A DNA stretch of 35,880 bases from an uncultured Colwellia sp. Its GTDB lineage: Bacteria > Pseudomonadota > Gammaproteobacteria > Enterobacterales > Alteromonadaceae. Shown in pieces: positions 24,472 to 35,127 of this stretch (its first letter is position 1; the number at the start of each line of letters is the position of its first letter). A program made the position numbers and the translations under genes. Below the pieces are notes generated by a model that saw only the letters and a list, made by a program, of their open reading frames with translations, was not told where the DNA came from and did no database searches. The stretch spans positions 1 to 35,880 of the forward strand of contig CAJXUT010000007.1 of assembly GCA_913061365.1 (NCBI GenBank). The letters run 5' to 3'.

Positions 24472-25375
24472 AAGAAAACTTTTAAATAATTTTACGTATT
24501 TTAGCTTTATCATCGTAATTATTTTTGGTTCTTCAGTGTATGCCACAGAATATGATTTACCAACGCAAGGTTTTCGGCTTATTGGGCATGATCAAAATCA
24601 TCAGGTAGTAAAGGGTGATTATTTTCAAAAAATTGCGGAGCAGTACAATGTAGGTTTTTTGGCATTAATGGCTGCAAATCCTAATACAGACCCATTTTTA
24701 CCTAAGGTTGATAGCGATATTGTTATTCCTAGTGCAATGTTATTACCTTATGTTAAACGGGAAGGAATAGTCATTAATTTACCTGAGTTACGAATGTACT
24801 ACTTTTTACCGGAAGTAAACAAAGTACATGTTTTCCCTGTGGGGATAGGAAGAGATGGCTTAGCTACACCAAAAGCTACAAGCTATATTAGTAGTAAAAG
24901 AAAAGACCCTATTTGGCGACCAACTGATGAAATGCGTCAACGGTATTTCGACGAACATGGAAAACATTTAGCTAAAGAAGTTCCCCCTGGGCCTAATAAC
25001 CCTTTTGGCAAATATGCATTACGGTTAGGGACTAGTGAATACTTAATTCATGGGACTAATCAACGTTTTGGCATTGGTATGCGAGCTAGTTCAGGCTGTA
25101 TCCGTATGTTTGATGATGATATTAAGTGGTTGTTTGAAAATATACCTTTAAATACGAAAGTACGTATTATTGAGCAGCCAGTTAAGATGTCGTATGAAGA
25201 TAGAGGTAGGCGGTTAATTGAGATACATTCACCGTTAACAGTGAACAATACTACTCAGAAAAACACAATTACATCATCGATAAAGCAATTTATTGGCGAA
25301 GGTGATACTGCTTGGCAACAATTAATCCCTATGTTTGATAAACCACAAGGATTAATTATTGAATTGGAACAATAG
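24461..25375 (+). CDS. L,D-transpeptidase (YkuD domain) with LysM
   Basis: A 304-residue periplasmic enzyme of the ErfK/YbiS/YcfS/YnhG group. A signal peptide (FTYFSFIIVIIFGSSVYA) precedes a LysM-like segment (HQVVKGDYFQKIAEQYNVGFLALMAANP, residues 48-74 in part) and a YkuD catalytic domain (about 100-240) with HGT (His197) and the catalytic S-x-G-C-I-R motif at Cys213. Members either attach Lpp to peptidoglycan or form 3-3 crosslinks. The convergent neighbour is an Lpp-like lipoprotein, which favours the Lpp-linking role. The GTG at 24461 lies within the triphosphatase gene (11-bp overlap), with AGAGA eight bases upstream, implying translational coupling. Confidence 0.93.
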   Translation: MLIKRKLLNNFTYFSFIIVIIFGSSVYATEYDLPTQGFRLIGHDQNHQVVKGDYFQKIAEQYNVGFLALMAANPNTDPFLPKVDSDIVIPSAMLLPYVKREGIVINLPELRMYYFLPEVNKVHVFPVGIGRDGLATPKATSYISSKRKDPIWRPTDEMRQRYFDEHGKHLAKEVPPGPNNPFGKYALRLGTSEYLIHGTNQRFGIGMRASSGCIRMFDDDIKWLFENIPLNTKVRIIEQPVKMSYEDRGRRLIEIHSPLTVNNTTQKNTITSSIKQFIGEGDTAWQQLIPMFDKPQGLIIELEQ

Positions 25376-25746: not shown

Positions 25747-26109
25747 TTATTTGTTGGTTATATTGACAGAGTCAATGAGCTCTTCCATTAATTTTCTTTT
25801 TATATCAAGTTGTTGCTCTGCTTCTAATCCATATTTTTGGGCTAATATTTCATAGTCACTCAGTGCCAAACTAACGGTAAGACGAGGGCGCTTGGGGCGC
25901 TTATTAATAGGTAGGCCTAAAATATCACGGATTTGATCGGATGGACTAAGACCTGCATCAAGCGCTTGTTTTCGAATTGATAACTGAATTTTTTCATCCA
26001 TATCAAAAGCTACTTGTACAGCTTTCATCGCTTTTACAGAAGATTGCCATTTATCGGGGATTTTTCTATCTTTTTTGCTTTTGACTTCGGAAGTATTAAC
26101 TTTTGTCAT
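25747..26109 (-). CDS. Unknown 120-residue protein, possibly with two ribbon-helix-helix-like units
   Basis: I do not recognise a named family. The protein is soluble, basic at its N-terminus and lacks a signal peptide. Two similar units are visible: residues 31-67 (VQVAFDMDEK, then helix IQLSIRKQALDAGL and SPSDQIRDILGLP) and 76-113 (RLTVSLALSDYEILAQKYGL and an acidic/basic helix). Each is a short strand plus two helices, like ribbon-helix-helix DNA-binding folds. A basic KRPKRPR linker lies between them. It is the last gene of the yjfI-yjfJ-yjfK-like unit, 15 bp after the previous gene, with GAGAATAAG before the ATG. It might regulate the palindromes in front of the two Yjf units, or simply be a protein partner. 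Function is a guess; presence as a real gene is well supported. Confidence 0.75.
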   Translation of the reverse strand: MTKVNTSEVKSKKDRKIPDKWQSSVKAMKAVQVAFDMDEKIQLSIRKQALDAGLSPSDQIRDILGLPINKRPKRPRLTVSLALSDYEILAQKYGLEAEQQLDIKRKLMEELIDSVNITNK

Positions 26110-26124
26110 CTTATTCTCTCAGTC

Positions 26125-26766
26125 TTAACTTGCAGGATACATATCAATAATATCAGTTAGTGGTCTGAACAAAGTTAAAAAAACATCAGTATCGCCGTCT
26201 TGCCATACTTCAATATCTAAACCTTTACTCTGATCTTCATTATATAAGGCATATAATTCAAATTGCTCGCCACAATCTTTGCCTTCATAAGCCGAAAGGT
26301 CGACACTTCGATGATCTTTTCGATGAAAGTAACCAACTTTTGCAAAAGTATTTTGTTGATACTGTTCACTACTCCATGTTGAAGTTATGTCATTGTCACC
26401 TTGACGATTTAAAAAAGCCTGTCCTGGCTCATCAAATACTTCTGAAAAACTATCGAGGTCGAATAATTCTTCCACATCAGTGTGTTCAATCTTTAATGAG
26501 AATTTTAATTCTGTGGTGTCATCAATTTCTAGAGATAAAAAAACAGCTTGTTCATTAGTACCTTGTAAAGCCCACTCTGTTTGTGTGTTATGTTCATATT
26601 CATAACTATTGACCGCAGTAACTTGAAATTGCTGAGCTCGTAATGCTTGGGGTAAAGCAAAACTATCTGTCAATATTATAATATCGCCAACTAAAAGTTG
26701 GTTAACGTGGGTTAATTTACGTTCTGCTTGTGACTCTTTATTAAATATATTTTTAAAAAAGCTCAT
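26125..26766 (-). CDS. YjfK-like protein (DUF2491/DUF4178-type)
   Basis: A 213-residue acidic cytoplasmic protein without signal peptide. It begins MSFFKNIFNK, similar in style to the short amphipathic start of the neighbouring PspA protein, then LTHVNQLLVGDIIILTDSFALP, a beta-rich region with EWALQGTNEQAVFLSLEID, and an acidic C-terminal half (DIEVWQDGDTDVFLTLFRPL). By length and place directly after yjfJ it corresponds to E. coli YjfK; I cannot separate a DUF2491 from a DUF4178 assignment by eye. It lies 82 bp after yjfJ, with a perfect 13-bp hairpin in that gap, and 15 bp before the unknown 120-residue gene. GAGATAGAT precedes the ATG. Confidence 0.72.
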   Translation of the reverse strand: MSFFKNIFNKESQAERKLTHVNQLLVGDIIILTDSFALPQALRAQQFQVTAVNSYEYEHNTQTEWALQGTNEQAVFLSLEIDDTTELKFSLKIEHTDVEELFDLDSFSEVFDEPGQAFLNRQGDNDITSTWSSEQYQQNTFAKVGYFHRKDHRSVDLSAYEGKDCGEQFELYALYNEDQSKGLDIEVWQDGDTDVFLTLFRPLTDIIDMYPAS

Positions 26767-26848: not shown

Positions 26849-27538
26849 TTACTTCTGCTTGGCTTTAATACGATCAAGTACTGAGTTAGCACTATTTTCT
26901 TGTGATCCAATTCCAGCAGCTTTTAATTGTGCAGTTAATGATGAATCAGAGTTTTCAGATTCAAGTATTTCAGCCGCTTTCATTTTGTCATCAAACTTTT
27001 GCTGTTTAGCTTTAATTCGTTCTAAAGAGTCTTTAGCACTCAATAATTTTGAGTTACTTGATGAAAAATTATCCGTAATAGCAGAAGTCGCTTTTTGTAC
27101 GCTTTCTGTTGTTTTTACCATAGACAATTGACGTTTATGCTCAGTGACTTGACGTTCACTTTTCTTGACCAACTCTTTAAGTCTGTCTGCATTGCCACTG
27201 AAACTACTAAGTGCTTGTTGTTGAGCAGCTAAGTCGTTTTCTAAAGTAGAAATTTTTTCAGCAACTGCTAATGCGAGTGTCTCATCACCTTTTTCTAAAG
27301 CTTGAGCAACATAACCTTCATGTTCAGTTATTTCACGTTGTAAACGAGTTACTTCACGATCGGCAGACATTTGTTCTGCCATAACACCGGTTAAGTCACG
27401 TTTTGCTTTAGTTAAGTGATTCTCAGCATCACGAATTTCTTGTTCAAAAATACGGGTAGCATTTGCATCTACAATGGCTTCACCAGCTTCTGAAGCACCA
27501 CCACGAATTGCGGTCATAATCTTTTTAAATATACTCAT
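26849..27538 (-). CDS. yjfJ: PspA/IM30 family protein, YjfJ-like
   Basis: A 229-residue PspA/IM30 (ESCRT-III-like) protein. The short N-terminal helix MSIFKKIMTAIRGGASEAGEAI may bind membrane. A long coiled coil follows (about residues 30-150; AENHLTKAKRDLTGVMAEQM, REITEHEGYVAQALEKGD), then a further helical part (LLSAKDSLERIKAKQQKFDDKM) ending with SVLDRIKAKQK, as in YjfJ-type members. PspA proteins stabilise stressed inner membrane. No pspF, pspB or pspC is nearby. The neighbours are yjfI and a yjfK-like gene, so this is the Yjf-type paralogue and not the classical Psp response. TAGGAGAAA before the ATG is a strong ribosome site. Confidence 0.93.
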   Translation of the reverse strand: MSIFKKIMTAIRGGASEAGEAIVDANATRIFEQEIRDAENHLTKAKRDLTGVMAEQMSADREVTRLQREITEHEGYVAQALEKGDETLALAVAEKISTLENDLAAQQQALSSFSGNADRLKELVKKSERQVTEHKRQLSMVKTTESVQKATSAITDNFSSSNSKLLSAKDSLERIKAKQQKFDDKMKAAEILESENSDSSLTAQLKAAGIGSQENSANSVLDRIKAKQK

Positions 27539-27596: not shown

Positions 27597-28010
27597 TTAA
27601 AGCAAGTAGTCACTCATATCATCAATTACTTCTATGGCATTATTACTTAATACTGCCAATTCATGTTCAATATCATCAAACGTTGAGTTGATAGATAATG
27701 CACCGAAAACTACATATTTATCACCAATTTTTGAAAAGGACGATAAAGGCATTGGAATGTTCATTTCTAACATGCTCTCATGCATGGTATTTACACATTC
27801 AGTTTTTACTTCTTCAGAACCCCAGAGGTAGCTGATACATAAAATTTGGTCATCGGTTACCGATAGAAATATAGGTAATTCTTCTCGGCCTAGTAGTGTT
27901 ATTTGTAATACATCGACTTCACCAGAGATTGGTTGACAGTCAAAGTCCATTCCAGTTTCTGAATTGTCGGCCAAACTATTCAAATGATCGGCTATAGTAT
28001 GAATATTCAT
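27597..28010 (-). CDS. yjfI: YjfI-like DUF2170 protein
   Basis: A 137-residue soluble protein of the YjfI/DUF2170 type (E. coli YjfI is about the same size). Visible parts are MNIHTIADHLNSLADN, VDVLQITLLGREELPIFLSVTDDQIL, CISYLWGSEEVKTE and ALSINSTFDDIEHELAVLSNNAIEVIDDM. YjfI is regularly encoded next to the PspA paralogue YjfJ; its biochemical role is not established. ATG 28010 is chosen because AGGA is six bases upstream. A longer in-frame start at 28073 would place two palindromic operators inside the coding region. First gene of the unit; pspA-like yjfJ follows 58 bp downstream. Confidence 0.88.
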   Translation of the reverse strand: MNIHTIADHLNSLADNSETGMDFDCQPISGEVDVLQITLLGREELPIFLSVTDDQILCISYLWGSEEVKTECVNTMHESMLEMNIPMPLSSFSKIGDKYVVFGALSINSTFDDIEHELAVLSNNAIEVIDDMSDYLL

Positions 28011-28039: not shown

Positions 28040-28054
28040 TGACATAATATGTCA
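28040..28054. promoter_or_regulatory. Palindromic operator copy 1, before yjfI
   Basis: TGACATA-A-TATGTCA, a perfect 15-base palindrome just downstream of the predicted yjfI transcription start (about 28057). The same sequence recurs at 28075-28091 and 32107-32121. Confidence 0.75.
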
Positions 28055-28058
28055 GCGT

Positions 28059-28072
28059 TGTTAAATTTAACA
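28059..28072. promoter_or_regulatory. AT-rich palindrome over the yjfI -10 region
   Basis: TGTTAAATTTAACA is a perfect 14-base palindrome lying between the two TGACATA operators and covering the predicted -10 (TAAATT on the minus strand, 28069-28064). It may be a site for a second regulator. Confidence 0.45.
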
Positions 28073-28091
28073 CCTTGACATATTATGTCAA
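28064..28091 (-). promoter_or_regulatory. Promoter of the yjfI unit
   Basis: On the minus strand, a perfect -35 TTGACA (28091-28086) and -10 TAAATT (28069-28064) are separated by 16 bp. The -35 is part of operator copy 2, so a protein bound there would compete with RNA polymerase. Confidence 0.6.
28075..28091. promoter_or_regulatory. Palindromic operator copy 2, over the yjfI -35
   Basis: TTGACATA-T-TATGTCAA, a perfect 17-base palindrome with centre at 28083, 36 bp from the centre of copy 1. Confidence 0.75.
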
Positions 28092-28141
28092 GCTCTTTTT
28101 GTTTTCTATGTAAGTTTTTTATTTACTATTTATAAAAGGGG

Positions 28142-29854
28142 CTAATTGAGACCCTGTTGTGTTTTCCATGCTTTTTGATGCAGCTGGTAAAGTGTATGAC
28201 TTCCCAAGGTATTGATATCAACTTTTTCTTTGTTTATATAAAAGTTATTTGGAAAAATAAAAGCGGCTTTTAATATGTCTAAATTAAGCCAACTATGTTT
28301 TACCGGTAACTCGTTTAAATCATTTAGACGTGCAAGCGGGCTTTTTCCGGCTTTAGAGGCAATAGTCCAACCCCACTCGCCAAAGCTAGGAACATTGTCA
28401 TGGTATTGTTGCACATGTGGGAAACTTGCAGCTTTTAATGTTTTACCTATGGAAATAAAGGAGTCTTTCGCATGGTAAGGGCTTGTTGACTGAATGGCAA
28501 TTAAACCATCTCCAGAGAGTAGCTGCTTTAATTTAGCATAAAAATTAACGGTATATAGTTTATTAAGATCGGGGTGGCTTGGATCTGGTAAGTCGACGAT
28601 AATGGCATCAAATACTTCCCCAGTTTCAATCAACTTATTAACCATTATAAATGCATCATTACGTAAAATAGTTACACGCTTATCTTGTAAACTCTGACTA
28701 TTCAAATGACTAATTTTTCGGGCTAAGTTACTATTTAAATGCTTCTCTGGAGTTTTAAATATATCTATTAACTCGCTGTCTAGATCTATTAACGTAACTT
28801 GTTTAGGTTGATATTTCAGTACATCTCGTAATGCTAATCCATCACCACCGCCAACAATAAGTATTTTCTCTTGGCGAGCAGAAGCGGCTAAAACAGGTGC
28901 GACTAAATAATCGTGGTATACATGTTCGTCAAAGGATGAAAATTGTAAGCGGCCATTAAGGTAAAAATTAATGATGCTGTTTTGCGATGTGCCAGCATTT
29001 ACTCCTAAATGGCGCTCGGTGAAAGTAAGTTGCTGATAGCGAGTTTTTTGAACATGAACAACCTTGTCTAAATATAACAAGCTATTCATTTGATTAAGCC
29101 AATGATTACCGTAATTGAACATAAGTACAATAATGAATGCTAATACGAAATGTAAACCGATAAAGGTTTTACGCCAAACTAGTTTATGCCAATACCGTAA
29201 AACAAAAAAGGCACCCGCAATAAGGTTTAAGCTTGCCGTTAATGCAGCAGCTTTACTGATATCTATGCTGAGTAAAAAAACTACCCAAATAGCTGCACCA
29301 ATACCTGCTCCAATGTAATCTGCACCATAAATTGTGCCTAGGTTATTGGCGAGGTGTTTATTGTGTATTTCTTCACGAATTCTGGCAATAAGAGGAATTT
29401 CCATACCGATAAGGAAGCCTAATATAACACCAAAAAAATACGGACTATTTATCGCAATAAAACTGAGCTGCTTAAAGAGTCCTCCTTTGGGAATCATGTC
29501 AGGAGGAAGAGAAAACATATCAGCAATCAGGTGTGGCATCATTTGCGTTATGGCAATCAGGCCGCCGATAATTAAAATTGAGCAGGCACCAAGTAAAGCA
29601 ATAATTAACTCTAAATAAACAAAGCCATTAAAAGCACATCGTACTTTACGCGCAGCAAAAGCACCTAGACCCATTGACACTATCATTAAGCCAATCATTG
29701 TGTAAATAGTGCTTTCCATTACACCAAGCACTCGACCTGCATAATGAGAGAGAAGATATTCGTAAATTAAACCACATCCAGCAAGAATTGCCATCGCGAG
29801 AATAAGTAAAGTGTCATCAATGAGGTGGGATTTTTTTTCGGGCATAAAGGACAA
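28142..29854 (-). CDS. Membrane-bound polyamine aminopropyltransferase-like protein
   Basis: A 570-residue fusion of about seven transmembrane helices (residues 15-250) with a spermidine synthase-like, SAM-family domain (about 270-540). The catalytic part shows YLNGRLQFSSFDEHVYHD (about 298-315), the nucleotide-binding VGGGDGLALRDVL (334-346), LIDLDSELI, and the D-L-P-D-P motif (D421, D424) used for the amine substrate, then LYTVNFYAKLKQLLSGDG. Aminopropyltransferases transfer an aminopropyl group from decarboxylated SAM to polyamines. Which amine is used here, or whether a membrane-associated compound is the substrate, is unknown. It is the last gene of the lipoprotein-DUF350 unit, 139 bp after it. 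The TTG at 29854 has AGAG upstream; ATG 29845 is an alternative start. Confidence 0.88.
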   Translation of the reverse strand: MSFMPEKKSHLIDDTLLILAMAILAGCGLIYEYLLSHYAGRVLGVMESTIYTMIGLMIVSMGLGAFAARKVRCAFNGFVYLELIIALLGACSILIIGGLIAITQMMPHLIADMFSLPPDMIPKGGLFKQLSFIAINSPYFFGVILGFLIGMEIPLIARIREEIHNKHLANNLGTIYGADYIGAGIGAAIWVVFLLSIDISKAAALTASLNLIAGAFFVLRYWHKLVWRKTFIGLHFVLAFIIVLMFNYGNHWLNQMNSLLYLDKVVHVQKTRYQQLTFTERHLGVNAGTSQNSIINFYLNGRLQFSSFDEHVYHDYLVAPVLAASARQEKILIVGGGDGLALRDVLKYQPKQVTLIDLDSELIDIFKTPEKHLNSNLARKISHLNSQSLQDKRVTILRNDAFIMVNKLIETGEVFDAIIVDLPDPSHPDLNKLYTVNFYAKLKQLLSGDGLIAIQSTSPYHAKDSFISIGKTLKAASFPHVQQYHDNVPSFGEWGWTIASKAGKSPLARLNDLNELPVKHSWLNLDILKAAFIFPNNFYINKEKVDINTLGSHTLYQLHQKAWKTQQGLN

Positions 29855-29936
29855 TTTACTCTGTCGTTATGAAATCATTATCTAGTGTTGTTAATATCGA
29901 GATATTGAAGAATGTTAGTATGGTATTTTGAGTTAA

Positions 29937-29968
29937 GTTACGATCGCACTTATTGCGCAGATCGTAAC
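29937..29968. repeat. Hairpin between the DUF350 and aminopropyltransferase genes
   Basis: GTTACGATC (29937-29945) and GATCGTAAC (29960-29968) form a perfect 9-bp stem with a 14-base, GC-containing loop just after the DUF350 stop. On the transcript it is followed by TTAACTC, so termination would be incomplete. Confidence 0.5.
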
Positions 29969-29993
29969 GCTAAATTGAAGTGACTAACTTTGC

Positions 29994-30896
29994 TTAAGCC
30001 ATCAATGCCGTTAGTATGAGAGCAATTGAAATACTGGTTGCCATCTCTATGCTAGCAACGCCAATATTATGTTGTTGATCTACTTCTTCTACTAAGTTGA
30101 TTCCCCAAAGAACAATTCGTTTAGCAATGGATGTCAACAGTGAAACTAATATGGTCATGGTAATACCAAAAACTAACCATCCTAGTAAATTAATAATTAG
30201 TGTATCTGGACTATAAACAAGAAAGTGACTCGCCGCGGTAACAGCAAGCGCCGTACTAATAACTTGACCACTATAGCGAATAGCAAGTGCTAAATGCCCA
30301 TCGCTAAGTGCTTCTTGCAAGCAATCTTCTTGATTATTTTTAGCATACTTTTTCTCTCTAATGCGAGTGACTAAAACTAATACCGCCTGTGCAACAATAA
30401 AGCCGCTGGTAATTGCTATGAAAGTAGAGATATCTAAACCATCAACCCAAAGCAGAACGGCACGAATAATAATCGCTGTAGCAATTGCACCTGCAGCATC
30501 AATAATGCCTATAGTGAGATTTTTATCTTTTATTAATGCTGTTTTATCTAAATGTTGTAATGCAACTTTATCTTGTATGATTCGACCCACTTTAATCAGT
30601 ATCAACCCATAAATACCGTAGGCCAACATGCCGATAATTTCCATCAAATAACTTGGCGCATTTTCTCCGGTAATAGCACCAGTTAACACTATACCTAAAG
30701 CTAAAATGCTACCAGCAACACTTACTCCAAAAGCAAAATTATCTTTTTGAGCTAATTCTTCTGTACTATTTACTTTGCTTGTTAAGCCTAATAAAAACCG
30801 CATTGCGCCTAAAAGTACGATAGCAATAGTGATATCTATGGCTAAATAAATGAGTAACTCTTGATTAACACCAACAAAATCTATCAATGTGTTCAT
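29994..30896 (-). CDS. yjfL: DUF350 (YjfL) membrane protein with two tandem repeats
   Basis: A 300-residue protein with about eight hydrophobic helices in two similar halves. Half 1 has FAFGVSVAGSILALGIVLTG and SYLMEIIGMLAYGIYGLILI. Half 2 has LALAIRYSGQVISTALAVTA and TLIINLLGWLVFGITMTILV. Each half is a four-helix DUF350 unit. E. coli YjfL has a single unit, so this is a duplicated form. The family's activity is unknown; it is often found beside PspA and aminopropyltransferase genes. It lies 21 bp after the lipoprotein gene and 139 bp before the aminopropyltransferase gene, in one unit. Confidence 0.87.
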   Translation of the reverse strand: MNTLIDFVGVNQELLIYLAIDITIAIVLLGAMRFLLGLTSKVNSTEELAQKDNFAFGVSVAGSILALGIVLTGAITGENAPSYLMEIIGMLAYGIYGLILIKVGRIIQDKVALQHLDKTALIKDKNLTIGIIDAAGAIATAIIIRAVLLWVDGLDISTFIAITSGFIVAQAVLVLVTRIREKKYAKNNQEDCLQEALSDGHLALAIRYSGQVISTALAVTAASHFLVYSPDTLIINLLGWLVFGITMTILVSLLTSIAKRIVLWGINLVEEVDQQHNIGVASIEMATSISIALILTALMA

Positions 30897-30917
30897 AACT
30901 ATTTTTCCTATTTCCTG

Positions 30918-31958
30918 TTACTTACCACGTCGAAAACTGCGTGATGTATTGGTATTAGAGTTTCTAAAGCTTGAGCTTTTTTTAAACTTAGATTGCGTCT
31001 TTGACTTACTTGCATAATTACTTTTTTTAGCCGTATTGCTTCGAAAGCGATTAGCACTTGATTGTGCTGTTTTACTTTTAGAAGATAAGCTAGATGAACC
31101 AGTACGGTTTTTACTGTAAGGGCTACTAAATTTTTGACCTCTGCTAGCGAATGACTTTTTAGTACGCTGATCAAGCTGAGTTTGTTTTTTTAACTGATTA
31201 GGTGAGCTATAACGAGTTCTACCATAGTCATTATAATAACTGTAGTTTCTACTTCTTCCCCAATCATTATAGTAAGCAGGTCGACCTAGCATATTCCCCA
31301 TAAGAGAATACACACCATACCATGCCCAAAATGACATACCGTTACTAGCTGTTTGCCAATTACCATAACTTGGATTACCGATAAGTTGTTCACCAGTACC
31401 AAAGTCTTGCGCATTATTTGCTTGTTGAGATTGTGATTTAGAAAGCGAATTTACTCGAGGAAGTTGGCCATCGGACATATCGGCTAATACATTTAAAGGA
31501 TCACTTAGGGCATCTGAATAAAGCACCGGATCTGCAGCTTGATAAATATTAAGTAATTCATCATAAAGTGCTTGGCTAGAGGCAAATATTTGTGGCTGAT
31601 TTTTAGCGGTATTTACTCTATCTAGTAAAGCGCGATACATTGGGCCTTGTGTTGTTGCATCTTTACTAAATTCAGCAACTAAGGTATTTAGGTCTGGCTT
31701 TAATTTTGATACTTTTTCGGCATACTGACGTATTAAGTTAGCATTGCGTACTTGACCATCACTTAACGCCTCACCTAGTTGAGTAACTCTTTGTTCAGTT
31801 ATAGGGAGTTGTTGTAGAGCTTGCTCTTTAATGGGATCACCACCACAAGCAGATAACAATAAAATAGAGAGCACTAATGTTGATCTAGTGCATATTTCTT
31901 TAAGAAATTGTTTGATAAAAGAGTCTTTTAGCCTTTGCATTTCTGCTATTATCTCCAT
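30918..31958 (-). CDS. Predicted lipoprotein with a basic, Ser/Asn-rich tail (YjfM-like place and pattern)
   Basis: I do not recognise a characterised family. A hydrophobic signal with lipobox L-L-S-A-C (lipidation at Cys38 from this start) leads to a helical domain (about 40-165: QLPITEQRVTQLGEALSDGQ, VRNANLIRQYAEKVSKLKPD). Then comes SFWAWYGVYSLMGNMLGR, a Tyr/Asn/Arg region (YYNDWGRSRNYSYYNDYGR), and about 100 residues rich in Ser, Lys, Arg and Asn ending RRGK. The SFW...LMG...LG segment and disordered tail resemble E. coli YjfM (DUF1190) in outline, which supports calling it the YjfM counterpart only tentatively. First gene of its unit. ATG 31940 is an alternative start giving a more normal signal length. 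Confidence 0.7.
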   Translation of the reverse strand: MEIIAEMQRLKDSFIKQFLKEICTRSTLVLSILLLSACGGDPIKEQALQQLPITEQRVTQLGEALSDGQVRNANLIRQYAEKVSKLKPDLNTLVAEFSKDATTQGPMYRALLDRVNTAKNQPQIFASSQALYDELLNIYQAADPVLYSDALSDPLNVLADMSDGQLPRVNSLSKSQSQQANNAQDFGTGEQLIGNPSYGNWQTASNGMSFWAWYGVYSLMGNMLGRPAYYNDWGRSRNYSYYNDYGRTRYSSPNQLKKQTQLDQRTKKSFASRGQKFSSPYSKNRTGSSSLSSKSKTAQSSANRFRSNTAKKSNYASKSKTQSKFKKSSSFRNSNTNTSRSFRRGK

Positions 31959-32106
31959 AAAAATGCTATGTTAATATTATTCATTCAACAAACATTTTTA
32001 TTGAAATTTTATAATACTGGAACTTCATTGTTTTACGCCTGTTTCTCTATAACGACACTTGGAGAGCAACAGGTAGTGAATAGTTCAAGTTAATTAATAG
32101 CATTAA

Positions 32107-32121
32107 TGACATATTATGTCT
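32107..32121. promoter_or_regulatory. Palindromic operator copy 3, between the lipoprotein gene and glnE
   Basis: TGACATA-T-TATGTCT differs at one position from the perfect palindrome found twice before yjfI. It lies 149 bp before the lipoprotein gene and 70 bp before glnE, in a divergent intergenic region. Given that the other copies control a Yjf unit, the lipoprotein-DUF350-aminopropyltransferase unit is the likelier target. Confidence 0.65.
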
Positions 32122-32190
32122 ATGTTCAAATTATATTGTCTTGATTATACTATCTTGATGCATTTATTTTAAGTAATAAAAGGACTGCTT

Positions 32191-35127
32191 GTGTATACAT
32201 CTTCATCATCTGTAAATTTATCTCCTCTATTAACGCAACAAAAAGAAAAAAGCTGGGAACAATTTAGTCAGCAACATTCTGAATGTTATCAAGCGCTAAC
32301 ACCTGAACAGCTTGAAGACTTTAAGTTGGCCATTAGCTTGAGTGATTTTGTTTTAGCCAGTGCACTACAAGCACCAGACTTAGTGATGAGTTTATTTGTA
32401 AATAAAGATGTCTATGAAAAAACAGTACCATTATATGCAGAATTATTACGTGTTTTATTAGTTGACTGTGAAACAGAGGAGCAGTTACATCGGATATTAA
32501 GACGTTTTCGATTACAACAAATGGTTAATATAGCCATTGCTGACTTAGTACTCGACATTCCTCTTGAGCAATCACTAGAACGTTTATCATTACTAGCTGA
32601 TGCGCTTATTCAAAGTAGTCTTTCTTGGTTAACAACATTTTGTCAAACAAAATGGGGAACTCCAACAAGTAGAGAAGGTGAAGTTCAACCATTACTCGTT
32701 TATGGAATGGGGAAGTTGGGTGGATATGAATTAAATTTCTCGTCTGATATTGATTTGATTTTTGTATATCCTCACAGCGGTGAAACTCAAGGGCATAGAA
32801 GAAGTATTGAGAACCAACAGTTTTTTACCCGTTTAGCGCAAAAGTTGATTACCTCTTTACATCAACAAACGGCTGATGGATTTGTTTATCGTGTTGATAT
32901 GCGTCTAAGGCCTTTTGGAGAAAGTGGCCCGTTAGTTTTAACGTTTAGTGCAATGGAAGATTACTACCAAGAACAAGGAAGAGATTGGGAACGTTATGCC
33001 ATGCTTAAAGCACGTGTAATACCACCACTTAACGGTGAAGATGAATATCACCAACAACTTTCCAAACTATTAAGACCTTTTGTTTATCGACGCTATATTG
33101 ATTTTAGTGTAATTGATAGTTTGCGACGTATGAAAATGATGATCTCACAAGAAGTGAGGCGTAAGCAGTTAGTAAATAATATTAAATTGGGAGCCGGCGG
33201 TATTCGTGAAATAGAGTTTATCGTGCAAGTATTTCAGTTAATTCGTGGTGGAAGAGTTAAAGAGTTGCAACAACGCCGACTACTCACTGTATTACCTGAA
33301 TTAGTGATTTCAGGTGAGTTAGAAGAAGACAGTAAATTAGTGTTAGAAAATGCTTATTGCTTTTTACGTAGAGTTGAAAATATTTTACAAGCTTTAGCAG
33401 ATAAGCAAACGCAAACGTTACCAGATAATGATTTAGACAAAGAACGATTACTGCATGTACTGGAATTTAATTCTTGGGAAGATTTTTGTTTAGTGCTTGA
33501 CCAGCATATGCATGCTGTTCATGACAAGTTTGATCAACTTATTGGAATTGAAAGTCCAAATCATCAAGCACAAGATCAACACTGGACAACCTTGTGGCAT
33601 AGTCGGTGGAGTGATGAAGAGTCCATTGCTTGGTTAGAGCAAGAGCAAGGAGATAACGATGAAGTACATTGGAACAGTGAGAGTATTTGGCGTTTATTAT
33701 CAGACTTTAGAGATGATGTAAGTAAACGTAGTATCGGTAACAGAGGAAGACAAGTATTAGATAAATTAGTCCCGTTACTTATTTGTCATATTGAGCAAGC
33801 TAAGCAAGCAGAATTTGTACTTGAACGTGTTTTACATGTATTTAAAAAGATAGTGACCCGCACCGCTTACCTCGAACTATTGTTTGAAAATGAAGGTGCT
33901 TTAAAACAACTAATTCACTTATGCCAAGCAAGCCGTTGGGTGACAGATTATATTGCTAAATCTCCAATTTTATTAGACGAATTAATTGATCCTCGTTTAT
34001 TACATAACCCAACAGAAATTTCTGCTTATGGGCATGAACTGCGTGAGAGTATGCTACGCATTCCAGAGGAAGATCTTGAAGCACAAATGGACGGCTTACG
34101 ATTATTTAAACAAGCCCAACAATTACGTATAGCGGCGGCAGATATTTCTGAAGTACTAAGCGTAGAGCAAGTAAGCCAGCATTTAACTGCATTAGCACAA
34201 GCAATTATAGCTGAAGTAATTAACATTGGTTGGCAACAAGTCATCGCTCGCTTTGGTGCGCCAAAGTCTCTTGTTAATGCCGAAAGTAATGAACAAAATT
34301 TAAATCAAACGGTATTACATAATAAAGGTATTGGGGTAATTGCTTACGGTAAAATGGGGGGCAATGAACTGAGTTATGGCTCAGATCTTGATTTAGTCTT
34401 TGTGCATAATAGTCCAGAAGGAGATGTAACAACAGGGCTAAGTAATGGCGATAAAAGTGTGCCGGCTAGCCAGTTTTACATGAAACTAGCGCAACGCATT
34501 ATGCATATTTTTAATACGCGTATGACTAGCGGTATTTTATATGAGTTGGATATGCGCCTACGTCCTTCTGGGAACTCTGGTGTTTTAGTAGGGCATATAA
34601 ACACTTTTGAGCAGTATCAAAAAGAAGAAGCATGGACATGGGAGCATCAAGCATTAGTTCGAGCTCGTGTGGTTTATGGTAATAGTGTTATCGAACAACG
34701 TTTTAATGAAATTCGTCACCAAATATTAAGTGAACAACGTGACGTTGATAAATTAAAAGTAGATGTGGCAGAGATGCGAGAAAAAATGCGTAAGCATCTA
34801 GATAAATCTAAAGACGAACTCATTGATATTAAACAAGGGGTAGGTGGTTTAGTTGATATTGAGTTTTTAGCACAATATTTAGTACTGGCACATTGTCATA
34901 CGCACGAAAGTTTGAGCCAGCGTTGTGATAACTTAAGCACATTCAAAGTATTAGCAAATATTGAATTGTTAACTAAAGAAGATCAAAAACTCTTAGCTAA
35001 AAGTTATCAAGCGCTAAGAGGTTTAGGTCATAAAGCAACGTTACAAAATGAAGTGTTATTAATGAACAAAGATGCAGTAGAAGAGAGAAATCAAGTTATA
35101 TCAATATGGCAAAAGTTTTTAAATTAA
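32191..35127 (+). CDS. glnE: Bifunctional glutamine synthetase adenylyltransferase/deadenylyltransferase
   Basis: GlnE adds or removes AMP on glutamine synthetase according to nitrogen status (through PII and glutamine). The 978-residue protein is near the family length (E. coli 946) and shows two nucleotidyltransferase domains. The N-terminal deadenylylating one has YGMGKLGGYELNFSSDIDLIF and VDMRLRPFGESGPLV. The C-terminal adenylylating one has YGKMGGNELSYGSDLDLVFVH and LDMRLRPSGNSGVLV. Each contains the G-S-D-x-D metal motif, and each is followed by a helical domain (GAGGIREIEFIVQVFQLIRG and GVGGLVDIEFLAQYLVLAH). The GTG at 32191 is supported by AAGGA six bases upstream. It is divergent from the lipoprotein gene, and its end is 18 bp from a convergent gene. 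Confidence 0.97.
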   Translation: MYTSSSSVNLSPLLTQQKEKSWEQFSQQHSECYQALTPEQLEDFKLAISLSDFVLASALQAPDLVMSLFVNKDVYEKTVPLYAELLRVLLVDCETEEQLHRILRRFRLQQMVNIAIADLVLDIPLEQSLERLSLLADALIQSSLSWLTTFCQTKWGTPTSREGEVQPLLVYGMGKLGGYELNFSSDIDLIFVYPHSGETQGHRRSIENQQFFTRLAQKLITSLHQQTADGFVYRVDMRLRPFGESGPLVLTFSAMEDYYQEQGRDWERYAMLKARVIPPLNGEDEYHQQLSKLLRPFVYRRYIDFSVIDSLRRMKMMISQEVRRKQLVNNIKLGAGGIREIEFIVQVFQLIRGGRVKELQQRRLLTVLPELVISGELEEDSKLVLENAYCFLRRVENILQALADKQTQTLPDNDLDKERLLHVLEFNSWEDFCLVLDQHMHAVHDKFDQLIGIESPNHQAQDQHWTTLWHSRWSDEESIAWLEQEQGDNDEVHWNSESIWRLLSDFRDDVSKRSIGNRGRQVLDKLVPLLICHIEQAKQAEFVLERVLHVFKKIVTRTAYLELLFENEGALKQLIHLCQASRWVTDYIAKSPILLDELIDPRLLHNPTEISAYGHELRESMLRIPEEDLEAQMDGLRLFKQAQQLRIAAADISEVLSVEQVSQHLTALAQAIIAEVINIGWQQVIARFGAPKSLVNAESNEQNLNQTVLHNKGIGVIAYGKMGGNELSYGSDLDLVFVHNSPEGDVTTGLSNGDKSVPASQFYMKLAQRIMHIFNTRMTSGILYELDMRLRPSGNSGVLVGHINTFEQYQKEEAWTWEHQALVRARVVYGNSVIEQRFNEIRHQILSEQRDVDKLKVDVAEMREKMRKHLDKSKDELIDIKQGVGGLVDIEFLAQYLVLAHCHTHESLSQRCDNLSTFKVLANIELLTKEDQKLLAKSYQALRGLGHKATLQNEVLLMNKDAVEERNQVISIWQKFLN

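Follow-up and report, generated by a model that had tools for sequence, protein, structure and literature searches.

A conserved palindrome in the yjfI-pspA region of a Colwellia contig as the predicted operator of a co-encoded ribbon-helix-helix protein

The subject of this analysis is a palindrome with the core GACAT-N3-ATGTC, which occurs in three copies in a stretch of 35,880 nucleotides from an uncultured Colwellia sp. (GenBank assembly GCA_913061365.1, contig CAJXUT010000007.1; the whole stretch is referred to as the window). Two copies are located at the promoter of an operon consisting of yjfI, a pspA-type gene, a DUF4178-like gene and a gene for a putative ribbon-helix-helix (RHH) protein. 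The third copy precedes a unit encoding a lipoprotein, a DUF350 protein and an aminopropyltransferase. It is probable, judged from comparison of sequences, that the palindrome serves as operator for the RHH protein, whose gene stands last in the yjfI operon, and that this protein would switch its own cluster together with scattered membrane-maintenance genes.

Palindromes and genes at the yjfI locus

All features of the locus lie on the minus strand. The upstream operator of the yjfI unit (O1, 28075–28091; TTGACATATTATGTCAA) is a perfect palindrome of 17 bp and holds the -35 hexamer TTGACA (28091–28086). The second copy (O2, 28040–28054; TGACATAATATGTCA) is perfect over 15 bp and is situated where transcription is expected to start or just past this point, with 29 bp left to the ATG of yjfI. 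Between both copies the -10 hexamer TAAATT (28064–28069) is found, which is kept as TAAATT in the conserved loci described below. The third copy (O3, 32107–32121; TGACATATTATGTCT) contains one mismatch but has a perfect 13-bp core (GACATATTATGTC), and precedes the lipoprotein-DUF350-aminopropyltransferase unit.

A scan of the window with up to three mismatches reproduced the coordinates and mismatch numbers of the three copies that had been reported in a first-pass annotation of this DNA, and also bore out its remark that no other copy is present, as only two more matches appeared, both with three mismatches. When the window is modelled as a first-order Markov sequence, the chance expectation is 0.00018 for exact copies and 0.0079 if one mismatch is allowed. 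At three mismatches the palindrome is unremarkable in the window, as 5 matches were counted versus 2.08 expected, a number reached in 4 of 100 shuffles. In the entire genome to which the window belongs, seven copies with at most one mismatch were counted versus none of a reversed control pattern and 0.84 expected. At two mismatches 22 matches of the palindrome were obtained versus 11 of the control, so that about half of them look like background and single looser matches are not trustworthy one by one.

The hexamers TTGACA (28091–28086) and TAAATT (28069–28064), separated by 16 bp, form one of the two best sigma-70-like matches between positions 25300 and 32400 (10 of 12 positions, with TG before the -10 hexamer). 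The promoter scan thus agrees with the prediction of a promoter flanked by two copies and with a -35 hexamer inside one of them. Because the total number of sigma-70-like matches in this region (26) equals the expectation from shuffled sequences (27.2), the weight of the match lies in its conservation.

The first gene of the operon, yjfI (27597–28010), encodes a DUF2170 protein (PF09938, E 6e-39), which is CesT/Tir-like according to Ravi et al. 2024 (PMC11237479). It is followed by a gene for a PspA/IM30 family protein of the YjfJ type with a PspA_IM30 domain (26849–27538; PF04012, E 1.4e-38), a third gene for a DUF4178-like protein (26125–26766), whose match to PF13785 (E 9e-5) is just short of the cut-off, and finally the gene of the candidate regulator (25747–26109), a protein of 120 amino acids with two predicted RHH modules (residues about 30–66 and 76–119). 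The gaps between these four genes measure 58, 82 and 15 bp. The upstream unit starts with the gene of a predicted lipoprotein without a Pfam match (30918–31958), followed by the genes of a DUF350 membrane protein of the YjfL type (29994–30896; PF03994, E 2e-33) and of a membrane protein with a spermine/spermidine synthase domain (28142–29854; PF01564, E 6e-35), the aminopropyltransferase. Ravi et al. 2024 describe a second group of CesT/Tir(YjfI)-PspA operons with a spermidine-synthase-like membrane protein, DUF350, a lipoprotein and DUF4178, to which an RHH transcription factor is added as the last gene "in some cases". This is the same gene set as in the window, and the RHH gene is already annotated there as a transcription factor.

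At least three PspA-family genes are present in the genome of the window: a pspF-linked pspA without the palindrome (G000:C36, L341 3495–5574), a pspA-pspC operon with the palindrome (G000:C321, L101 1618–2590) and the YjfJ-type gene of the window (26849–27538). At the start of L101 (G000:C321), the end of L012 (G000:C68) and the end of L198, translated peptides similar to RDSSTSRGLGDVYKRQ and SVSYTHLRAHET resemble adapter or assembly artefacts.

Palindromes could also represent an RNA or DNA structure, such as a terminator, an attenuator or a repeat element, instead of a protein binding site, and a terminator-like pattern was called over 28074–28092 on the plus strand. However, O1 lies upstream of the transcript, as it overlaps the -35 hexamer, and no plus-strand gene was seen to end at 28074–28092. 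Terminator-like calls in this region are near background (6 versus 4.0), no Rfam match was found in the window, and the sites occur at many unrelated promoters. A structural origin of the palindromes is therefore considered very improbable.

Conservation of the palindromes and the genes behind them

Conservation was analysed in the best 80 of 285 yjfI loci, which were obtained by scanning named genomes with an alignment of YjfI. This set spans Colwellia, Thalassotalea, Cognaticolwellia, Litorilituus, Catenovulum, Marinifaba, Gayadomonas, Psychrobium, Psychromonas and others. In 79 of the 80 loci an operator pair is located within 400 bp upstream of yjfI, each copy with at most two mismatches from TGACATNNNATGTCA; the remaining locus (L269) has a single copy. 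The conservation upstream of orthologous yjfI units, on which the first-pass annotation had made its proposal depend, is thus present. Both operators are 33–39 bp apart in the 79 paired loci (36 bp in 48 of them). A TTGACA hexamer with at least five of six matching positions overlaps the upstream operator in all 79 loci, and a -10 hexamer (at least four of six) follows at 16–18 bp in 73 of the 79, versus 34% expected with shuffled spacers. In the 48 loci with 36-bp spacing, the mean column identity of the operators amounts to 94%, compared with 77% for the spacer and with 56% and 52% for the upstream and the downstream flank, respectively.

As the sample is dominated by close relatives, chance or a recent common ancestry might be put forward as an explanation. 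Against this stand the higher identity of the operators than of the flanks in the same 48 loci and the recurrence of the motif in separate families and outside the order. Moreover, the palindrome was present in 39 of 39 genomes of the genus, with 247 copies versus 8 of the reversed control, which happens to resemble a LexA-like site and may therefore overstate the background. As a source of the yjfI pair, chance or shared ancestry is excluded, and for the motif as a whole its probability is negligible.

The copy in front of the lipoprotein unit is less constant. At the position of O3, a match with at most one mismatch is present in 41 of 77 covering loci and one with at most two mismatches in 62 of 77. 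O3 sits 149 bp before the ATG of the lipoprotein gene and just downstream of a promoter-like TTAAAA-17-TATAAT (32172–32144); promoter-like matches in the O3 region are no commoner than in shuffles. The assignment of this copy to the lipoprotein unit in the first-pass annotation was right in position, but it is not conserved to the degree of the pair. O3 also lies about 70 bp ahead of the start of glnE on the opposite strand (32107–32191), and the expression of this gene, which encodes glutamine synthetase adenylyltransferase, may be affected via O3 too.

In loci from outside the order (L360, L361, L362, L367, L368 and L371) the operators are 15 or 18 bp apart, not 33–39 bp; L360 possesses three copies, with distances of 15 and 31 bp between them. 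The two operators thus have no fixed helical phasing relative to each other.

The neighbourhood of the motif was surveyed in 13 of the 39 genomes of the genus, with all of their 75 sites; several gene names were first given by eye, and domain searches covered representatives. Of these sites, 71 are located outside called genes, and 70 have a gene start within -40 to 250 bp. The distance between site and start codon varies, with a maximum of 212 bp within the 250 bp searched. The genes behind the sites are yjfI-pspA and yccA in 13 of 13 genomes each, the carbonic anhydrase gene in 9 and the lipoprotein unit in 6. Less frequent are genes of SPFH proteins (3), yqiJK-like genes (3), a second pspA operon (2) and nhaA (2), and a Mrp-type antiporter, a YidC-like insertase and a zinc-ribbon protein were found in one genome each. 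Seven of the 75 sites fall outside any recurrent class by the distance rule, one of which (L049) is still at a zinc-ribbon gene. In the genome of the window, the four additional copies with one mismatch are located ahead of the pspA-pspC operon, of yccA and of a zinc-ribbon gene as well as in the space that separates can from a ppiC-like gene (names partly by eye), and a copy with two mismatches and a perfect 13-bp core lies ahead of nhaA.

In other families, htpX is preceded by a site in 11 genomes (G043, G050, G053, G054, G061, G063, G075, G095, G133, G139 and G306); HtpX was identified by NCBIfam in G043 and by 54–67% identity to the HtpX of G043 in the other ten. Further genes behind sites in these families are those of NfeD and SPFH proteins, nhaA, yqiJK-like genes, pspA and an ion channel gene. 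Domain matches of the representatives comprised Bax1-I/YccA, Pro_CA, Na_H_antiport_1, Mrp/MnhB, NfeD, Band_7, 60KD_IMP, PspA, PspC and Ion_trans. The designation YqiJ/YqiK-like is our own assumption, as these proteins gave no Pfam match, and a single weak hit to flotillin (E 4e-5) stayed far short of its cut-off.

Some of these neighbourhoods show further features. Upstream of NfeD an XRE-type membrane protein is encoded in two genomes (L169, L173). In G054 (L161 2132–5800) a copy before an ion-channel gene (Ion_trans) adjoins cpxP-like and response-regulator/kinase genes (by eye), and a contact with the Cpx response is possible at this site. One Lrp/AsnC gene (L048, L073) is transcribed divergently to nhaA in some Colwelliaceae and to the Mrp-type antiporter gene in G001, with the palindrome in between each time; this exchange of nhaA and the Mrp-type genes is an antiporter swap under the same operator.

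The first-pass annotation had named conservation of the motif at the yjfI and lipoprotein units only as support for its proposal. Such a restriction does not hold, as sites are also found before yccA, can, nhaA or mnhA, htpX, SPFH/NfeD genes, yqiJK-like genes and the second pspA operon. These additional loci point to a larger, coherent regulon and not to random copies. The notion of a dedicated repressor that couples both units therefore has to be modified: a shared regulator is well supported by the conservation and repression fits the promoter geometry, but the motif extends beyond the two units.

The co-encoded RHH protein as candidate regulator

The first-pass annotation had postulated a dedicated regulator but had missed the likely candidate in the window itself (25747–26109). 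Of the 80 yjfI loci, 78 contain the RHH gene, and the remaining two are cut off by the end of the contig before its position is reached. In an order-wide survey of 295 genomes, based on counts of the exact 13-mer and on profile searches with E-values per genome, the RHH gene was detected in 91 genomes. Two or more exact copies of the motif occur in 66 genomes, 64 with and 2 without the RHH gene. DUF2170 is encoded in 126 genomes, including all 91 with the RHH gene, and among them at least two copies were found in 64 of the 91 genomes with the RHH gene versus 1 of the 35 without it. The motif thus follows the RHH gene and not YjfI alone, and YjfI (DUF2170) was ruled out as its cause. In the family of the window, 8 of 8 genomes with the RHH gene have at least two copies, and 16 of 16 without it have none or one.

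A corresponding result was obtained outside the order, where the exact motif was present in 7 of 11 genomes with the RHH gene versus 0 of 39 RHH-free genomes; the latter were picked by handle number and not randomly, and their RHH-free status was deduced from the full list of 13 positives. In six of the seven genomes the site or sites are on the contig of the RHH gene, about 1.1–2.0 kb upstream of it, and G509, the seventh, has them on a different contig, ahead of a DUF2170 gene. The genome G061 has the RHH gene on one contig, beside a DUF4178-type third gene (by eye; no Pfam confirmation), and exact sites on others, before a separate pspA, nhaA, yqiJK-like genes and htpX, which argues for action in trans. 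Its yjfI unit (L346) has no copy within two mismatches of the relaxed pattern.

Exactly two exact copies were counted in 22 genomes, 11 of which were inspected. In six of them (G004, G039, G160, G281, G292 and G320) the only copies are the pair before yjfI-pspA, as would be expected if the operon encoded its own regulator, and this points to an autoregulator within it. Where the whole unit was inspected (G039, G160, G292 and G320), the RHH gene is, by eye, its only DNA-binding-looking gene.

In four RHH-less relatives from the Colwelliaceae (L342, L343, L344 and L347), yjfI-pspA occurs in a different type of operon. With the relaxed pattern (at most two mismatches) no copy was detected in three of them, and in the fourth there are three scattered matches with two mismatches and no pair upstream of yjfI. 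The operon of these relatives comprises channel, DUF350-like and ATP-grasp-like genes (by eye); divergent from it lies a small gene, which in L343, the one examined, encodes a DUF6471 protein. This small gene could encode a different regulator of the same module.

Instead of the RHH protein, an unlinked factor that merely co-occurs with the operon might bind the palindrome, for example the Lrp/AsnC protein encoded beside nhaA, a member of the Fur family or an XRE or LysR neighbour. The 15-bp palindrome with its 7-1-7 arrangement is shaped like sites of the Fur and Lrp families, and in the family of the window the site lies between the Lrp/AsnC gene and the divergent nhaA or mnhA. However, close Lrp orthologues (78–90% identity) are restricted to eight genomes, all of f1, one of which (G110) is free of the motif, and none of the 37 genomes with any Lrp match belongs to the motif-rich groups f6, f12 and f16. 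Members of the Fur family number one to three in each of 26 genomes, whether motif-rich or motif-free, and G116 has five copies of the motif and one Fur-family gene. Furthermore, in the four genomes mentioned above the RHH gene is the only gene of the unit that looks DNA-binding. The Lrp/AsnC factor beside nhaA was rejected as regulator, since the distribution of its orthologues does not follow the motif, and a third Fur-family paralogue was rejected as well, since the numbers of members are independent of the motif in the 26 genomes. An unlinked factor is thus an improbable explanation.

The predicted fold would suit the RHH protein to this role. The family is invariant in the positions RPRLT and A.Q.A.D. 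The first AlphaFold2 model (pLDDT 68) contains strands at residues 31–34 and 78–81 and helices at 39–52, 56–64, 83–93 and 100–119, which corresponds to strand-helix-helix twice. Pfam gave no match at E < 0.001; among 11 family members, one had a NikA-like match (E 0.0023) and two matched a phage family (E 0.011). Weak matches were also obtained with NCBIfam (RelB/DinJ, best E 0.021, 4 of 11 members) and with PHROG ("Arc-like repressor", E 0.043). Structures found with Foldseek include NikA, CopG, single-chain Arc and AvtR, the latter as the top match of the first model (E 0.9); NikA superimposes with 1.6 Å over 36 columns and CopG with 0.7 Å over 34, at E-values above 1. The gene at 25747–26109 may accordingly encode a tandem-RHH protein, although this model-based fold assignment is weak.

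Several observations weigh against the RHH protein as the regulator of the palindrome. With regard to its fold, the second model (pLDDT 77) has matching helices but no assigned strands, the best Foldseek E-value is 0.9 with none below 0.001, and the lists of matches also contain non-RHH chains, among them lambda-type repressors and sigma factors; searches of PDB sequences with the RHH protein gave no RHH match, only one chance match (E 1.5). With regard to its distribution, two genomes with at least two copies have no detected RHH gene; in G149 the yjf contig stops right after pspA, and in G121 two single copies are on separate contigs. Of the 82 genomes with at least one exact copy, 69 possess the RHH gene and 13 do not, and a single copy is present in 11 of these 13. 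Five of the 11 inspected two-copy genomes have no exact pair at yjfI: in G310 the exact pair precedes another PspA-like gene and yjfI has a TTT-centred variant pair, in G053 one copy is at yjfI and one at htpX, in G306 one is at htpX and one elsewhere, and G055 and G121 have single copies. Fewer than two exact copies were counted in 27 genomes with the RHH gene, namely all 22 of one genus (f11) and five of another (f25). The yjfI promoter was inspected in 8 of the 22 genomes of f11, and in each of them the same place is occupied by a variant pair (TGACATATAATGNCA-like and AGACATTAAATGTCT-like); in f25 the two genomes inspected of the five have one degenerate copy each at yjfI. Outside the order, 4 of the 11 genomes with the RHH gene are without the exact motif. 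The Fisher values for the association with at least two copies (3e-40), for that among DUF2170 genomes (8e-13) and for that outside the order (3e-6) are all inflated by kinship. Because the genomes are related, the association is better judged from the contrast within the family and from the sample outside the order. Finally, repression is read from the promoter geometry only.

Proposed regulation and relation to known systems

The operator word predicted to be bound by the RHH protein is TGACATAWTATGTCA. One tandem-RHH chain would form a built-in pseudo-dimer on the asymmetric half-site TGACAT, and two chains would occupy one palindrome; one chain per half-site is suggested by the asymmetry of TGACAT itself and by the difference between the two modules. 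In the promoter of the regulator's own operon the -10 hexamer is bracketed by two operators, one of which covers the -35 hexamer, and binding would be expected to exclude RNA polymerase. Operators on the -35 and around the -10 hexamer thus point to negative autoregulation. A single operator would bring in the lipoprotein-DUF350-aminopropyltransferase unit, and in relatives single operators would add genes of inner-membrane quality control and ion homeostasis (yccA, htpX, nhaA or mnhA, carbonic anhydrase, NfeD/SPFH and the second pspA). Release might be caused by membrane or ion-gradient stress, perhaps signalled via the co-encoded YjfI/PspA pair. YjfI is placed among CesT/Tir-like proteins by Ravi et al. 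2024 (PMC11237479) and in a paper on BacA (PMC10948618), and for this reason a chaperone-type partner switch would be a reasonable route of the signal.

The same regulator might act differently, as an activator, as a dual regulator or as a co-regulator that needs YjfI or PspA for DNA contact. The tandem-RHH factor AvtR represses or activates depending on its concentration, according to a review (PMC5569661), and the spacing between site and start codon varies, reaching 212 bp within the 250 bp searched. At the own promoter, however, the operators overlap the -35 hexamer in 79 of 79 loci and flank the -10 hexamer in 73 of 79, and the yjfI unit of G061, without a copy while exact sites are present elsewhere, indicates that YjfI need not be encoded beside the site. 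These modes of action are therefore rather unlikely, and repression by the RHH protein is preferred.

AvtR of Acidianus filamentous virus 6 (PDB 4hv0) is described in the same review as a tandem-RHH protein that acts on DNA as a monomer and is a repressor of the gene that encodes it, which provides a precedent for the proposed mode of action. It resembles the candidate regulator, as predicted, in the two RHH motifs per chain, the self-repression and the several inverted-repeat sites, but it is an archaeal virus protein with a different site and was absent from the PDB sequence searches with the RHH protein. A tandem RHH arrangement is also found in TraY and VirC2. F-plasmid relaxosome chains, which we take to be TraY, are among the weak fold matches of the RHH protein. 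TraY of the F plasmid and VirC2 of Agrobacterium share the RHH fold but serve conjugation or T-DNA transfer and not stress control, being RHH proteins of DNA transfer (PMC6514445).

With the classical Psp system (PspF, sigma-54 and PspABC) the proposed circuit shares a PspA-family effector under envelope-stress control. It differs in the sigma-70-like yjfI promoter (TTGACA-16-TAAATT) with flanking operators, and in the genome of the window PspF is encoded elsewhere, beside another pspA without the palindrome, so that control of the PspF type was not found at yjfI. The assumption that PspF was lost and replaced by a new circuit was rejected, as PspF exceeded the cut-off in 24 of 26 genomes, including that of the window. 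Regulons of the Cpx and sigma-W type, which respond to membrane stress, overlap with the motif-associated genes in the targets htpX, yccA, pspA and SPFH/NfeD, but they differ in the class of the regulator and in the site.

In the literature searched, which left subscription papers mostly outside, no operator, regulon or autoregulation was found for the yjfI-pspA-RHH operon, and a search with the letters of the palindrome returned one unrelated plant paper only. In the available parts of Ravi et al. 2024, likewise, no operator, autoregulation, targets or tandem nature of the RHH protein were found, and the RHH gene, given there for some cases, is present here in 78 of 80 loci. The operon and its final RHH gene are thus already in print, and the operator, the autoregulation and the regulon appear to be new.

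Through these findings, an operon whose annotation was functionally blank gains a likely regulator, an operator and a set of partner genes. The co-regulated HtpX, YccA, NhaA and SPFH proteins offer an approach to what DUF2170, DUF350, DUF4178 and the membrane aminopropyltransferase do, and the short DNA word can be used to find further members of the regulon. As a tentative view, for which the chances are somewhat less than even, this would be a distinct Psp-type circuit of marine gammaproteobacteria, in which a single-chain tandem-RHH repressor senses damage of the inner membrane or of the sodium/proton gradient via the CesT-like YjfI and PspA and releases HtpX, YccA, SPFH/NfeD, antiporters, carbonic anhydrase and the membrane aminopropyltransferase. 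Many marine bacteria would then possess a PspA-linked stress circuit that is separate from PspF.

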